This document shows, piece after piece, positions 1 to 6,376 of a stretch of DNA of 30,537 bases. Origin of the DNA: a virus. The notes under the pieces are model-generated. The model was not told the DNA's origin. It worked only from the letters and a program-made list of their open reading frames with translations, and searched no databases. The position numbers were made by a program, and so were the translations under genes. Each line of letters begins with the position of its first letter. Positions within the stretch are counted from its first letter, which is position 1. The stretch lies in IMG/VR virus record IMGVR_UViG_3300035180_002510, positions 1 through 30,537 of that record. One strand, 5' to 3'.

Positions 1-3000
1 CGGAGATCATGGGCCGCTTGGCGAACCCCAGCCGGCGCTGCTCCATGGCCGTGGCGATGAGCGTGATGGTCTTGCCCGACCCGACCGCATGGCCTAGCAG
101 GATGCTGTTCTTCAGGGCGCGGGACACGCCAATCTTCTGGTAGCTCTCCAGCTTGAGGGGGCGCCCCCCCCATTCGGTGGCCATGCCCGGGAAGCGATCC
201 GCGGCCGGTTCCGGGAAGTTGATGGGAACCGAGTTGTTCACCTCGGTGTTGAAAGCGTTCTCGATCAGCTTTCGGCCCTCGTCGCTGACCTTGTAGAACC
301 CCTCATGCCAGCGTTCCACGGCGCGGTTCTTCGCCTCCTGGGCCTGCTGGGTCTTCACCGCATCCACATGCGTCCCATCGTCATCCTTCCAGGTCACCCT
401 CAGTGGCTTGTTGAGGAGCACGGCTTCCGCGAACTTCCAGGGCTTGATCTCGTCGGGGACACCGAGTTCGTCCCAGATGGCTTTCTTGTCCAAGGAAGCA
501 TCATCCAGGGCCCAGCGGCCGGAGATCGGATCCTTGCGGAGTCCCGTGAGGCGCAGGCCCGTCGCATAACGCATGAGGTTGGAGATGGCAGAATCAGGAA
601 GCCAGGTGGCACCGGGCTGTGCTGTGATCTGGCCCAGCTGCGTCCATTCGGGCTGGACCTTCTCCAGAGCCTCCACGTGGCGCTTGAACGCATCATTGTC
701 CTTGGCCGCCTCCTTGGCCTCTCGGAGTTTCTTCCGGACCTCTCCGCCCAAGTACAGGTAGGCCGGCTCCCAGATCCCATTGGCCGGGTTATCGAAGGCC
801 AGATTCTGGCTGGCCAGTTCCTGCTTGACGGCCTCGACATCCTTCCCGAGCAGCTTCCCCATGTACTCGAGGTCCAGGCCGCCCCGCATGTTCATGGAGA
901 TTTCCAGGGCATCCGGGGTGGAATCAGCCTTGGTGGGCTCCTTGAACGGCTCAACGGTGCGTTTGGTAAAGATGTCGGCCTTGATGTAGTTGGGACGACC
1001 GTTCTCCTGCTCGACCTCATTTTCCAGGGCGCACACACGGGCCCAGCTCGACTCGTCCCCGAAGACGGCGGCATTGCTGGGGTCATTCACCGGCACGAAC
1101 CCGCCCTTGGGGCCACGCATGGTGAAGGCGTCGTAGGCCTTGGTCAGGGCCTTCTGGCCTTGCGCCAGTTCCGCATCGGTAGTGCCATCGGACATCATCC
1201 GGGCGACCTGGGCCAAGGCCTCGTCCCGCAGGTTGACGTAGTTCACCACGATCTTGGCCCGTTCCTGGGCGCGCGCCGGTTTGTCTGGCCACTTCTGGGC
1301 TGCCTCTGCCACCCAGGGATGCAGGACGGCCTTCCCCTCATCGATCACCATGGGGCGGCCATCTTTCACGAACAGGTGCCCCTCGGCGTGTGCGTCCTCA
1401 TCGTCGGTATGGATCTCGTTCTCGTCGTGGCCCTGCTGCACGAACCGGGAGGCAATATCCTTGGGCAGCCGGGCCGTGGCCTGCTCCAGTTCCTTCGCCA
1501 GGTCTCCGCGGGGGTTCACGGTCAACTCCTCGTTGCTCCGCATCGTCCCGACGCCGTAGTCGCCCAGCACCATTTCAGGGTGGGCCTTGAAGTATTCGTT
1601 CACCGGGACCGTGACCTCTTCACCGGCCCGGTTCAGCCCAATGCTGGTGGGGAGGGCTACTTGGAAGGCCTCCCCTCGGAACCCATCCCCTGCCTTCTTG
1701 CGCATGATAATGATGTCCGTGACCACCTCGGTCCCGGCATTGGCCTTGAAGGCGGTTCGGGGCAGACGCACAGCGCCAACCAAATCCCCCATGTCGGCCA
1801 TGGCCCTGCGATGGGAGGACCCCTGGGAATCCAGGGTGTAGTGGGAGCTGATGGCGACCATGAGGCCGCCCGGCTTCAGCTTCTCCATGCCCTTCAAGAA
1901 GAAGTAATTGTGGATGGAAGGGCTTCCCCATTCGGGGTGGGCATTGTCCGAGATCGAGATGTCGCCGAAGGGGACGTTGGTGATCACCAGGTCCTGGCTA
2001 TTGTTGGCGATCTTTGCGTCCTGGAAGCCCCTGATATGCACCTTGGCATCCGGATAGAGATGCTTCAGGAAGGCCCCGGTCATCTTGTCCAGTTCCACGG
2101 CCTGTAGCGCGGTCTGGGGGAGGATGTCCTTGGGCATCAGGCCCAGGAAGTTGCCAATGCCCGCGGAGGGCTCCAGCACCGTGCCCCCCTTGAACCCCAT
2201 GTGCTTCACCATGTCCCACATGCCCTTGACGATGGGGACACTGGTGTAGTGGGCGTTGAGGGTGCTGTTCCAGGCCGCCTTCATCTCATCAGGCGTCAGG
2301 ATGTCGGACAACTCCCGGTAGATCGGGAAGAACTCTTTCATCCACGCCGGGTCGATGGCGCCACTGGAACCCATGGTCTGGGTGGAACCATCCAGTATCT
2401 GGTCCACCTTGCCCAGAAGATCCCCCACGAGCGGGCGGCCATAGCTGTAGCCCATGCGGTTGGCTTCGCTCCACCCCAGGACATCCCGCACTTGGTCGAT
2501 GATGCCCGAGGGGTAGGCTGCGTTGTTGCCGCTCGTCGTCTTCAGGGCCTCCAGGGCTTCCTTCAGCTTGGTCGCCTCCAGCGCCTTGTTGCCGCGGGAC
2601 CAGTCCACCATCTTGGAAAGCGTGGTCGCTCCCCAGCCCACATACTTGGCCAGGACCTTCTGCTCTTCGGGGGTAGCCTTCCGGCCTTCCGCCTCCAGAC
2701 GCTTCAGGAGTTTCAGGGCTTCGATGTTGGCCCGGGCCGCCTTCTTCGCCTGCGCCTCGCTGGACAGATCGAAGGGGTTGATGTCGGCCTGGCTCTCTAT
2801 GGAGTGATTACGGGAGTTCCGTGGAGCTTGAGGTTGTTCATCCTTTGCAGCTTTGCCACGGTCTCCTGCTTGATCTGCTGGAAGAGTTTCTGGCCCAGTG
2901 GTCGGCTTCCTATCGCCGCTTCCGTTGGGTCGCACATCTGCGACATCGCGATCTCCCGGGCCTGCGGTAGGTCCATTCCCTCGGACCTCAGTTGAATCAC

Positions 3001-6000
3001 CCTCTGCATGTAGTCCTTCTGCTGATCCAGTAGGTACTTCGGCAGGCTTCCGTCCTGGTGCATCCGCAGGAGTTGCGCTGGGCGTGCCTCGGCCATGTGC
3101 TCCAGCTTCGCGTCCACCAGATTCCACGCCACCAGTTGCTCCGGCATCGGGACTCTCCTTCTTGGGTAAAGTGTCGGCTTTCTTGGGCTTTTCCGCAACT
3201 TCTGTTGATTCCTTCGGCGCCTTCTCCTGGGTGGAGGCCTCTTCGAAGTGCTTGGCGATGGCCGCCCGGGTCGCGTTCCATCCCTTGGGCAGTTTCACGC
3301 CGGTCTTGTCCTCGAACTGGGCCCGCAGGCCCTTGTTGCCCGGATGCAGGATCTGCCCCAGGGTCTTGACATCCTTCTCTTCCAGGGCCTTGTCCAGGAT
3401 GGCCTGGGCCCTGGGGTGAACCGGCTTGTCGGCGGGCTTCTGCTCGTAGGGGTTGACGGTGTTCCCGTCCAGGGTCCCGGTGCGCGTGCCCTTGAGGGGC
3501 ACGGGTTCGACCTTCACCAGGCGGGGCTGGGCCAGGTTGAGCAGGCCTTCCCCGGGCTTGAGCTTCCGGTTCCGCCGCTCCGCCAGGCGCTCCGCCAGGG
3601 CCTTGGCGCCCTTCAGGATCTCGGGGTGGCCGTTGGTCTCGTTCGGCTTCCCGGTCTTGAGGGGTTCCGGGTCGAACTCCTGCCGGCGCTTGATCTCTTC
3701 CGGGGCCCACTTGGTCGCGTCCGTCACCTGCTTGAACACCCGGGGATCGAACACGGCCCAGGCCGGGGATTCCCCACCGAGGTCGTAGACCATGGCGTTG
3801 AACCCGAGGCTGCGCAGGTAGTCGCTCAGGGACTTCCCGCCGCCGTGCTCCGCCACCAGTTCACGATGAAGCTCAGCGCCGGAGAGGTTCACCTGGGACT
3901 CGATGCCGAAGGCCTTCAGTTCCTCGGGGGTGTAGGTCCGGATCTGGCGGGCGTCGAAGGAGACCAGCTTGGAGGTGTCCACGTAGACGGCCAGGGTCTG
4001 GCCCGCGCCATGGGCATTGAACTTGGAGGCGGTGTCGTGGCCCTGGGCCAGGTAGACGGCATCACCCCCCACGTTCCGGGGGTTGATGGAATAGACCGGG
4101 CTCCCGGTCTTGGTCTCTCCGCCGTTGAAGCTGAAGTAGGGGGGGCGAGGCCCGGCCGTGATCTTAACGCCTCCGATGTCAAGGACAGGCACATTCCGGC
4201 GCTGGTAGTTCTGCAGGCGCGGGTCGGGGCCTAGCTCTGTGGTTTCACCTTCAAATCGGGCTGGTTCTGGGCCCAGGTGATCGAGTCCTCGCCAGGTTCG
4301 GGTGGGCGCATCCCAGTGCGGAGGCACAGATCCCGGAAGCTCTCGTCCTGCGGGTTCGGGTACTTTTCCAGGTCCCTCTGGAAGTAGGGCTTCCGCAGGG
4401 GTTTCTGCTCCTGCGGGGGATTGGGCTTCTGGGACATCCTGTGCTCCTGCTTCAGTATCGGTCGTTTGGGGGGGCAGGGTAGGGGCTTCCTGCGCCGGGA
4501 TCTCATCCGGCGTCGTGGCGTGGCCCGTGGGCTGGAGGGCCCGGATCTGGGCCGGGGTGGGGGTGGCCGGCTGCGGTACAGGTTGTGCCGCTGGCGGGAT
4601 GGTGGTGGCAGGGGTAGCCGTGGGGCCATTGCCCATTGGCGCCGCAGGGGGCTCAGGAGGCGCGAGAAGGGGGTGCTCCGGGGCGATGTAGCGCAGGCGG
4701 TCCTTCGCGGCCTGGAGGAGGTCTGCGGCCTCTTCCGCGTCGTTCTTGGCCTCCTCGACGAAGGGATGCTGCTGGGCCCGGGCCTCCATCTGGTCAGATA
4801 GGATCTGAAGCTGCTGGACCTGCTCGGCGAGGGCAGCCACTTCAGGGCTGTCCTTTGGGATTCCAGCGGTCGCCTGGGGGGTGGCTGGGGCCATGCCTGG
4901 CGCGGCCGGGGGCGGCGCGGGAGCCGGGGATGGCGCAAGGGGTGCCGCTGGGAGGGCCCCAGCCGTGAGGGGCGTGGGGGCCTCGGGCGGGGCGGTGGGG
5001 GTGTTTACCTGCCCTGTGCCCATGGCCTGGGTCAGCTTCCCCTGCTTCAGGAGGCTGTCCCGATAGGTTCGGGCCACGCGCAGGGCCTCCGTGATCGCCC
5101 CGTTCACCTTGTCAAAGGCTGTCCGGTCATAGTTCTCCACCTGGTTCCCCTGGGGATCCACCGTGACCGTGTTCTGCATGTCCCCCTCAGTCTTCGAGAG
5201 GAGGTCCTTCTTGGCCTGTAGATCGCCGATGAACCCATCCACGCCATTGGGGTGTTCCGAGGCCATGCGCCGGTATTCGGCGGCCCGCATCGCCTGGGGA
5301 GCGTGCAGGAGGCTGAAGGCCAGCCCCGTGGCCAGGGCATCCTTGGTCCCATCGAAGGCCCCGCGCTGGGGATCCCAGGTGAGCTTGTCGATCAGGTTCC
5401 CGCTGTAGGTCAGGGCAAGGCCCATGCCTGTATTCGGGGCGGCGGAGTTCACCAGGAAAGCCGCCCCAGGGTTAGTCGTTTGGAGGGCCGGGACCAAGCT
5501 CGCCGCCTTGAGGAGCACCAGGTCCTTGCCGGACTGAAGAGCGCCCGCCGCCAGGGTTGCCCCGGCACCCGCACCCTTGTCCAGGGCCTGGTTCATGGTG
5601 GTTCCAGCACTCTGCGCGGCGAAACCTCCCGTCCCGAGCACCCCAAGGGTGGGGACCATGCCAGCCACCCTCCCGGCGAAGTCCGCGGCCTGACCAAGGT
5701 CAGTCTGCGGGGCGGTTTCCTGGAGTGTTTGCTGGGCGCTCATGGGGCGAATGGCCTGGCCCGCGGCCTGGATCCGCTTCCCGGCCTCGTCCAGGCCGGC
5801 CGCCTGTGCCAGCTTGCCCGCCTCACGCACGAATCCGCTGGGGGCACTGGCAAGGTTCACGACGGGGGTGGCAGCGCCATGGGCCACGCCCTCGAAGGCC
5901 CGGAGAGATGGGCTCTTCTGCCTCGCCTCGTCCTGCGCCTTCACCTCCTGCCAGCCTTCCGGGGAAAGACCCTGGACCGAACCCACTTGGTAGGCCTCGG

Positions 6001-6376
6001 CCTGTTCCCTGGGCATGCCCTGGGCCACCAGCATCGCCACCTGGGCATCGTGCGCCTGCTTCAGCGTGTCGATGGCGCGTTGCAGGCCCTGGGGCGGAGC
6101 ATGGAATCGGCTCCCCCCAGCGTTCGCCGCGTTGCGCGGGATGCCGACGGTGGAGACCTGCTCGGAGCCCTGCGGGATGATGGGCTCGGGCTTCCCTGTG
6201 GGGCTGGGTGCGTCAGACTTCACATCCATGAGGTAGGAAAGATCTTCCTCACCAGCCTTTACGGGTGCGTCGGATTTTATATCCATGAGGTAGGAAAGAT
6301 CTTCCTTACCAGCCTTTGCGGGTGCATCAGACTTCACATCCATGAGGTAGGAAAGATCTTTGGGCGTATTCGGCAT
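1..6376 (-). CDS. Giant ejected-type polyvalent protein: ART-like domain + DarB-like N6-adenine methyltransferase/helicase (partial, C-terminus outside window)
   Basis: The frame is open from ATG 6376 (ribosome site AGGGATGA) to the window edge, at least 2,125 residues. In order: three DLSYLMD repeats (residues 7-57); Ala/Gly-rich hydrophobic segments (about 235-330) that could interact with membranes; a coiled coil (about 508-565); a Pro/Ala-rich linker; an ADP-ribosyltransferase-like domain (about 720-885, ending in VFDP at 875); a charged region to about 1075; a second Gly/Pro-rich linker; then a methyltransferase from NPFDLS at 1200, with SAM motif I LEPSAGIGNF near 1400 and catalytic NVPFGD at 1467-1472. 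A helicase begins with Walker A GHAVGSGKT at 2095-2103. Phage P1 DarB has the same methyltransferase-helicase layout, is carried in virions and protects incoming DNA from restriction. Location after two ejection-type genes suggests this protein is also injected. The fold calls are clear for the methyltransferase and helicase, and tentative for the ART-like part. Confidence 0.88.
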   Translation of the reverse strand, partial: MPNTPKDLSYLMDVKSDAPAKAGKEDLSYLMDIKSDAPVKAGEEDLSYLMDVKSDAPSPTGKPEPIIPQGSEQVSTVGIPRNAANAGGSRFHAPPQGLQRAIDTLKQAHDAQVAMLVAQGMPREQAEAYQVGSVQGLSPEGWQEVKAQDEARQKSPSLRAFEGVAHGAATPVVNLASAPSGFVREAGKLAQAAGLDEAGKRIQAAGQAIRPMSAQQTLQETAPQTDLGQAADFAGRVAGMVPTLGVLGTGGFAAQSAGTTMNQALDKGAGAGATLAAGALQSGKDLVLLKAASLVPALQTTNPGAAFLVNSAAPNTGMGLALTYSGNLIDKLTWDPQRGAFDGTKDALATGLAFSLLHAPQAMRAAEYRRMASEHPNGVDGFIGDLQAKKDLLSKTEGDMQNTVTVDPQGNQVENYDRTAFDKVNGAITEALRVARTYRDSLLKQGKLTQAMGTGQVNTPTAPPEAPTPLTAGALPAAPLAPSPAPAPPPAAPGMAPATPQATAGIPKDSPEVAALAEQVQQLQILSDQMEARAQQHPFVEEAKNDAEEAADLLQAAKDRLRYIAPEHPLLAPPEPPAAPMGNGPTATPATTIPPAAQPVPQPATPTPAQIRALQPTGHATTPDEIPAQEAPTLPPQTTDTEAGAQDVPEAQSPAGAETPAEALLPEGPGKVPEPAGRELPGSVPPHWDAPTRTWRGLDHLGPEPARFEGETTELGPDPRLQNYQRRNVPVLDIGGVKITAGPRPPYFSFNGGETKTGSPVYSINPRNVGGDAVYLAQGHDTASKFNAHGAGQTLAVYVDTSKLVSFDARQIRTYTPEELKAFGIESQVNLSGAELHRELVAEHGGGKSLSDYLRSLGFNAMVYDLGGESPAWAVFDPRVFKQVTDATKWAPEEIKRRQEFDPEPLKTGKPNETNGHPEILKGAKALAERLAERRNRKLKPGEGLLNLAQPRLVKVEPVPLKGTRTGTLDGNTVNPYEQKPADKPVHPRAQAILDKALEEKDVKTLGQILHPGNKGLRAQFEDKTGVKLPKGWNATRAAIAKHFEEASTQEKAPKESTEVAEKPKKADTLPKKESPDAGATGGVESGGREAGAHGRGTPSATPADAPGRKPAEVPTGSAEGLHAEGDSTEVRGNGPTAGPGDRDVADVRPNGSGDRKPTTGPETLPADQAGDRGKAAKDEQPQAPRNSRNHSIESQADINPFDLSSEAQAKKAARANIEALKLLKRLEAEGRKATPEEQKVLAKYVGWGATTLSKMVDWSRGNKALEATKLKEALEALKTTSGNNAAYPSGIIDQVRDVLGWSEANRMGYSYGRPLVGDLLGKVDQILDGSTQTMGSSGAIDPAWMKEFFPIYRELSDILTPDEMKAAWNSTLNAHYTSVPIVKGMWDMVKHMGFKGGTVLEPSAGIGNFLGLMPKDILPQTALQAVELDKMTGAFLKHLYPDAKVHIRGFQDAKIANNSQDLVITNVPFGDISISDNAHPEWGSPSIHNYFFLKGMEKLKPGGLMVAISSHYTLDSQGSSHRRAMADMGDLVGAVRLPRTAFKANAGTEVVTDIIIMRKKAGDGFRGEAFQVALPTSIGLNRAGEEVTVPVNEYFKAHPEMVLGDYGVGTMRSNEELTVNPRGDLAKELEQATARLPKDIASRFVQQGHDENEIHTDDEDAHAEGHLFVKDGRPMVIDEGKAVLHPWVAEAAQKWPDKPARAQERAKIVVNYVNLRDEALAQVARMMSDGTTDAELAQGQKALTKAYDAFTMRGPKGGFVPVNDPSNAAVFGDESSWARVCALENEVEQENGRPNYIKADIFTKRTVEPFKEPTKADSTPDALEISMNMRGGLDLEYMGKLLGKDVEAVKQELASQNLAFDNPANGIWEPAYLYLGGEVRKKLREAKEAAKDNDAFKRHVEALEKVQPEWTQLGQITAQPGATWLPDSAISNLMRYATGLRLTGLRKDPISGRWALDDASLDKKAIWDELGVPDEIKPWKFAEAVLLNKPLRVTWKDDDGTHVDAVKTQQAQEAKNRAVERWHEGFYKVSDEGRKLIENAFNTEVNNSVPINFPEPAADRFPGMATEWGGRPLKLESYQKIGVSRALKNSILLGHAVGSGKTITLIATAMEQRRLGFAKRPMIS
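2797..3147 (-). CDS. Nested small gene 2 inside the giant gene (116 aa, unknown function)
   Basis: ATG 3147 is preceded by AAGGAG with a 7-base spacer, a near-perfect ribosome site. The 116-residue product begins MPEQLVAWNLVDAKLEHM and has balanced composition, predicted helices and few low-complexity stretches. The overlapping giant frame (residues about 1077-1194) is a Gly/Pro/Asp/Glu-rich linker, so this frame carries the protein-like signal. The stop lies six codons before the conserved start of the methyltransferase domain (residue 1200). Its middle (GSLPKYLLDQQ) and its end (RMNNLKLHG) faintly recall the TnpV family of mobile-element proteins, but I do not rely on this. No function is assigned. 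It could be a linker peptide frame that happens to look coding, but the ribosome site argues against that. Confidence 0.62.
   Translation of the reverse strand: MPEQLVAWNLVDAKLEHMAEARPAQLLRMHQDGSLPKYLLDQQKDYMQRVIQLRSEGMDLPQAREIAMSQMCDPTEAAIGSRPLGQKLFQQIKQETVAKLQRMNNLKLHGTPVITP
4231..4437 (-). CDS. Nested small gene 1 inside the giant gene (68 aa, unknown function)
   Basis: ATG 4437 follows AGGAG with a 6-base spacer. The 68-residue product starts MSQKPNPPQEQKPLRKPYFQ and is polar with a mixed composition (DESFRDLCLRTG, ITWAQNQPDLKVK). The giant frame over the same bases (residues 647-716) is an Ala/Pro/Gly/Glu-rich linker of low complexity. The relative reading frame is the same as for the other nested gene (+1 to the host frame), and the stop is only a few codons before the ART-like domain begins. 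No family was recognised. It may be a small virion or DNA-ejection accessory, judging only from its place in the late operon. Confidence 0.55.
   Translation of the reverse strand: MSQKPNPPQEQKPLRKPYFQRDLEKYPNPQDESFRDLCLRTGMRPPEPGEDSITWAQNQPDLKVKPQS
6206..6358 (-). repeat. Triplicated 57-bp repeat encoding the DLSYLMD motif
   Basis: Three tandem in-frame copies lie at the N-terminus of the giant protein: units 6358-6302, 6301-6245 and a shorter third 6244-6206. Each encodes DLSYLMD(V/I)KSDAP followed by a short Lys/Ala/Gly/Glu spacer, period 19 residues. The DNA copies differ at a few positions (for example ATA versus GTG for the V/I codon), so they are not freshly duplicated. Confidence 0.9.

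Follow-up and report, generated by a model that had tools for sequence, protein, structure and literature searches.

A small predicted gene nested in the +1 frame before the methyltransferase module of giant DarB-like phage genes

Introduction

The Dar system of phage P1 (DarB, Ulx, DdrB, DarA, Hdf) includes a DarB-like methyltransferase-helicase, which is delivered with the phage DNA, and small helper proteins, of which Ulx and DdrB are listed as aiding DarB localisation or its addition to the capsid (PMC9024508). The CSP3 authors remarked that their phages likely have darA-type partners, none of which had been found (PMC10269572). Here, we consider a giant DarB-like gene from a viral contig of 30,537 bases (IMG/VR virus record IMGVR_UViG_3300035180_002510; this whole stretch is referred to below as the window) and two small open reading frames (ORFs), ORF A and ORF B, that lie inside it in the +1 frame. 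The P1 system differs from this locus in that its accessory genes are separate and P1 DarB lacks the upstream region; a codon scan of P1 darB revealed no nested ORF.

Other described systems are also comparable in part. The host gene belongs to the class of polyvalent proteins (PMC5512222): it encodes the paired methyltransferase and helicase and probably also an ART domain. As far as a search by terms shows, that survey does not mention nested genes. In the Rz/Rz1 spanins, a small phage gene is likewise wholly contained in another one in a different frame, but Rz1 is a lysis lipoprotein, whereas here the host is a giant protein of putatively injected type with several nesting sites. The Pfam family TnpV consists of small helical proteins of mobile elements and is known as a free-standing transposon gene; here, TnpV-like proteins are nested out of frame in a DarB-like gene, several of them exceeding the family cut-off, while ORF B is too divergent for the Pfam model. 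Finally, DUF1896 (PF08989; PDB 2apl, PG0816) occupies the slot directly before a DarB-like methyltransferase in Bacteroides elements and is the top structural match of the two proteins modelled here, but it is encoded by a separate gene, overlapping by 11–14 nt and not nested, and ORF B has no sequence match to it. No report of genes nested within DarB or SNF2 genes was found in the open-licence literature.

The nested gene in the window

Our best explanation, to which we assign a probability of about 0.68, is that ORF B is a true gene, nested +1 in a disordered linker of the giant DarB-like gene, whose product would be translated by internal initiation and would serve as a helical partner of the methyltransferase-helicase. 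Coding, conservation, maintenance of both frames, a conserved start site, and tight linkage to the methyltransferase are established for ORF B by sequence comparison; the initiation route and the partner role are what we infer. The features involved, all on the minus strand, are as follows.

2..6376, minus strand: giant host frame, DarB-like polyvalent protein, 2125 codons in the window, cut by the contig end
4444..4448, minus strand: AGGAG, ribosome site of ORF A, 6 nt 5' of the ATG at 4437
4231..4437, minus strand: ORF A, 68 aa, nested +1, between the N-terminal part and the ART-like domain
3716..4090, minus strand: tentative ART-PolyVal-like domain in the host frame (Pfam PF18760, E 0.023, under the curated cut-off)
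3155..3160, minus strand: AAGGAG, ribosome site of ORF B, 7 nt 5' of the ATG at 3147
2797..3147, minus strand: ORF B, 116 aa, nested +1, helical, TnpV/DUF1896-like, stop directly before the methyltransferase module
2..2794, minus strand: DarB-like N6-adenine methyltransferase and SF2 helicase module in the host frame, beginning directly after ORF B (PHROG 10089, residues 153–930 of the piece)

On re-check, the coordinates, +1 frames, start codons, and Shine–Dalgarno spacings of both ORFs agree with the first-pass annotation of this DNA, and the giant frame, which it described as stop-free, contains zero stops over 6376–2. PHROG 10089 (DarB-like antirestriction) matches the last 931 residues of the giant protein (E 1.3e-207), and the protein has the make-up of its class, an N6-adenine methyltransferase fused to an SF2 helicase in a large phage protein. 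The stop of ORF B falls at host residue 1194, and the methyltransferase lies within the piece starting at residue 1195, for which tblastn yields matches to 103 phage records. Of the two domains that the annotation had placed next to the nested ORFs, the methyltransferase stands by its clear PHROG match, while the ART-like domain has a sub-threshold Pfam match.

The bare openness of the nested frames was dropped as evidence because synonymous shuffles of the host mostly keep the +1 frame open, 80% of them across ORF B and 89% across ORF A. Codon usage is more telling. The third-position GC content (GC3) of the host frame is about 0.85 over most of the gene, 0.44 over ORF A, and 0.30 over ORF B, and where it drops over the nested ORFs, the first-position GC content (GC1) reaches up to 0.84. 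The codon-usage log-ratio is 23.0 for ORF B and 17.2 for ORF A, compared with a maximum of 9.2 in 500 synonymous shuffles, and elsewhere in the giant gene it nowhere exceeds zero. These values bear out the suggestion that both small ORFs are coding; ORF B, in addition, belongs to a conserved family.

The nested family across phages

When the two small ORFs themselves served as queries against viral contigs, phages, PHROGs, and Pfam, no match was obtained; ORF B was tied to its family via relatives of the giant gene. In the nearest relative, G001 (terminase 78% identical; giant protein 37% identical over residues 149–930), a giant frame of 4110 codons shows the codon reversal at the same two places, and the +1 ORF at the reversal reads MAQSPSLTKDPNRPVTFRTSGLDQAVLEYL... 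A scan of DarB-like phages revealed the reversal before the methyltransferase also in phages of Erwinia, Klebsiella, Microcystis, Ochrobactrum, Vibrio, Agrobacterium, Burkholderia, Pseudomonas, and Pseudoalteromonas. Many of the nested proteins share the motif MNLNNW...HWKE..P..Y..LK..G.L..AL..AAEQT...L...G...DEA..M.RE.YLFPPEE.

A search of viral contigs with the nested family identified 61 loci, of which 60 could be judged (L073 ends inside the gene). In all 60 of these mutually related loci the family gene is nested +1 in an open giant frame just before the methyltransferase, and no free-standing family copies occur in this set. Similarly, in 21 out of 21 matched phage records the gene lies, unannotated, inside the DarB-like coding sequence (CDS); it is missed in every matched annotated phage record, save as the accidental tail of an ORF in phage PBC5. 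A conserved phage gene could be overlooked in this way because annotation suppresses overlapping ORFs. In an independent sample of 39 giants picked by the methyltransferase alone, a +1 coding ORF just before the methyltransferase was observed in 33, its stop lying at a median of 17 codons before the matched module; the six giants with no codon signal have a GC content of 0.37–0.49, the range where this statistic is weak.

The first family profile matched ORF B with E 0.03. A wider profile, built from 108 proteins of the nested and TnpV kinds but not from ORF B, matched it with E 9.9e-7, the sole significant match among the 427 ORFs of the window, and ORF B keeps six columns that are invariant in an alignment of 39 sequences. 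ORF B thus resembles the nested family both in profile and in its +1 position immediately ahead of the methyltransferase. As for the searches with the small proteins proposed in the first-pass annotation, direct ones are empty; the family of ORF B is reached by profile, and free-standing TnpV genes occur in phiNJ3 and L090. Judging by these genomes, the nested state in phages is old and general, and not a recent fusion in the window genome.

Relationship to TnpV and DUF1896

Weak matches to Pfam TnpV (PF14198, curated cut-off 27 bits) were obtained for 27 out of 38 family members, and the nested proteins of four environmental phages (L099, L106, L111, L137) exceed the cut-off; the nested protein of gut phage MT835575 matches TnpV with E 3e-39. 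Gut phages and plasmids of Enterococcus and Cohnella carry TnpV genes that are nested +1 within DarB/SNF2-type frames. In phiNJ3 and L090, the free-standing copies are near serine recombinases and resistance genes. TnpV-carrying mobile elements of Streptococcus suis have been reported to favour insertion inside snf2 genes (PMC9815147), a possible link with nested TnpV.

AlphaFold models of ORF B (AF2 pLDDT 83, pTM 0.70) and of a family representative are both helical, and for both the top structural match is 2apl (PG0816, DUF1896). The single match in BFVD is apparently PBC5 orf33, that is, a member of the same family. A sequence search of PDB returned designed helical proteins and chance-level matches only, Foldseek gave no significant match against PDB, and a search of NCBIfam yielded nothing useful. 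In Bacteroides phage BKO1-TP4 and two Bacteroides plasmids, a separate DUF1896 gene overlaps the start of the DarB-like methyltransferase by 11–14 nt; a DUF1896 profile search of a Planctomycetota genome and one phage gave no match, the controls being equally silent. According to the sequence data, then, the slot before the methyltransferase is filled by a small helical protein, nested or adjacent, in elements of at least three bacterial phyla. The small nested protein probably belongs with Pfam TnpV, and its kinship with DUF1896 is likewise probable.

The first-pass annotation had also suggested that the genes were once separate and that the large ones were joined by reading through the small ones. 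The separate DUF1896 gene of Bacteroides is consistent with such joining, but a recent event in the window genome disagrees with the age and generality of the nested state. Past ORF B, about 60 codons go by before the host frame has a Met, and no nearby methyltransferase ATG is left. Relative to the methyltransferase, the Bacteroides DUF1896 gene is not in the +1 frame seen in phages; a conversion in one simple step is therefore not demonstrated, and either direction of change is possible.

The nested gene might be real and yet unrelated to DarB, being a small regulator or an excision-type protein that settled in a tolerant, free linker. This would agree with the solitary TnpV genes beside serine recombinases and resistance genes in phiNJ3 and L090, and with the name of TnpV, given for a postulated excision role in Tn4451 (PMC3158075), which itself tells against a role with the methyltransferase-helicase. 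However, the position before the methyltransferase is kept in phages of many hosts, in Firmicutes plasmids, and, as a separate neighbour, in Bacteroides, and the 60-locus phage set yielded no free-standing copies; we consider this explanation unlikely, though deserving of some weight.

Several further points weigh against ORF B being a nested, TnpV-like partner of the methyltransferase-helicase. ORF B itself matches no Pfam or PHROG model, and so neither reaches the TnpV (PF14198) cut-off nor matches DUF1896 (PF08989) by sequence; the profile comparison of the nested family with TnpV is weak (E 0.0015, 28 columns). The structural scores against 2apl (Z 8.2, 68 aligned residues, 2.3 Å for ORF B; Z 6.9 for the family representative) are within reach of unrelated helical proteins. 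The sampled loci are related, and so their summed counts are not independent trials. No homologue was found for ORF A, and the nested products are predicted from sequence.

Start signals

GGAG, AGGA, or GAGG at proper spacing precedes 64 of the 70 nested starts, compared with 5.5% of the 5,913 remaining +1 ATGs of these giants. In seven loci, the open stretch of the nested frame reaches just two codons 5' of the ATG, and in L095 and L098 stops directly precede it. Entry into the small frame by ribosomal frameshifting, which would yield a giant cut short and ending in the small protein, is disfavoured by this barely open upstream frame and by the starts with their own ribosome sites, and seems to us quite improbable. 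An arrangement that fits it is that of phage PBC5 (L027, L064), whose N-terminal giant frame continues without a frame change into the B protein and terminates there, the methyltransferase being a second CDS; this exception may, however, reflect an indel, a fission, or a sequence error.

Selection on the two frames

Substitutions were counted in 16 disjoint close pairs of relatives (365 substitutions). In the nested frame, nonsynonymous changes occur at 0.58 and synonymous ones at 2.35 of expectation, while the respective values in the host frame are 1.18 and 0.58; in nearly all pairs identity is higher in the nested frame than in the host one. The first-pass annotation had pointed to purifying selection in the giant frame alone as evidence against the small genes, and the relatives show the opposite, the nested frame being under purifying selection and the host frame merely open.

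Across the 70 nested ORFs, zero host-frame stops are observed, whereas 76.5 are expected if synonymous codons are permuted within the ORF, and 268.7 under the codon usage of the giant itself. The third frame behaves normally (398 stops vs 378 expected), and in phages with a GC content of 0.5, where about seven host-frame stops are expected per gene, none are present. Since the host frame stays stop-free over the nested ORFs, these comparisons suggest that both frames are translated; the giant is likely read through, with its linker residues there free of purifying selection. Selection on both frames, as expected for overlapping genes, is seen in the relatives, and not from the window by itself.

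These counts also bear on the notion that the small genes alone are real, the giant being untranslated through them and its long frame resulting from high GC. Conservation is indeed lacking for the host-frame residues across ORF B, and a single open frame is unsurprising in a GC-rich window, but the absence of stops where 76–269 are expected, which holds also at GC 0.5 with a normal third frame, makes this very improbable. A chance origin, with long alternate frames common at high GC and an accidental protein-like look, draws on the many spurious long ORFs in the window and the +1 openness likely by chance, but is refuted for ORF B: the codon reversal exceeds that of all 500 shuffles, the family is conserved, and selection is specific to the frame. 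Overall, we regard chance as very improbable.

Proposed mechanism and implications

Under the preferred reading of ORF B as a nested partner gene, one mRNA would yield both the giant, translated without interruption, and a small helical protein, the latter initiated inside the coding region of the giant from its own Shine–Dalgarno sequence and ATG. Selection would act on the residues of the small protein, while the giant would require just an open flexible linker. The fixed link to the methyltransferase-helicase suggests a partner role: the small protein would most likely be dedicated to the downstream module, aiding its folding, quiescence, or packaging and delivery with DNA, in the way that P1 DarB is aided by its small Dar proteins.

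In a broader form, which we would accept at even odds, an obligate small helical partner would be common to the DarB-like methyltransferase-helicases of phages and conjugative elements, its gene either nested (podoviruses, Firmicutes; TnpV-like) or adjacent (Bacteroides; DUF1896); the unseen Dar-type accessory proteins of Bcep22-like phages would be among these partners, and the disordered linkers of the giants would be regular nesting grounds, as for ORF A and the C-terminal family described below. The nested small protein is a concrete candidate for the partner missing in the phages of the CSP3 authors, and such proteins can be targeted directly to learn what DarB-like antirestriction proteins require for their function. 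The comparison also places TnpV and DUF1896 in a common context and presents the linkers of giant proteins as sites housing extra genes.

Other nested ORFs and features of the giants

ORF A is probably a second nested gene of the same kind, with a lineage-specific product, as far as its codon usage indicates. By eye, ORF A could not be aligned convincingly with the nested ORF that G001 has at the corresponding site; coding ORFs in the +1 frame do occur in other giants at upstream linkers comparable to the ORF A site. Erwinia phages share one such nested +1 ORF at the upstream linker, reading ...LLQ.R.I.N.QYV.AWKV..ALKRNP...LPDEL.EVWEKMHLLRRP. A second conserved nested +1 family, GLIDPPSPFDTLQKWKDW...LKQARQ.I.EKS, is located near the C-terminal end of the giants, mostly in Agrobacterium/Sinorhizobium-type phages.

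L013, residues 809–912; L087, residue ~851: Erwinia upstream-linker nested ORF
Giant residues ~2300–4440 in L040, L046–L055, L057–L059, L062–L067, L074, L075, and PBC5 L021: C-terminal nested family

Nearly all alternate-frame coding ORFs in the giants (L028–L137) are in the +1 frame: in the family set, ORFs other than those of the B family comprise 45 in the +1 and three in the +2 frame.

The window comes from a podovirus-like phage, its minus strand carrying genes for terminase, portal, head, and internal virion proteins. The N-terminus of its giant (6376–6200) contains three copies of DLSYLMD(V/I)KSDAP, and the G001 giant begins with (D/N)FNPD repeats. Given that 30 N-terminal residues package P1 DarB (PMC9024508), the repeats are possibly a candidate packaging signal by analogy. 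The G001 giant (L008, ~12900–12600, minus strand) also contains a stretch that by eye resembles GGDEF, ...GLPNRRAWDEA...DVDSLKWVNDSLGHGAGDELL...HVSGDEF.

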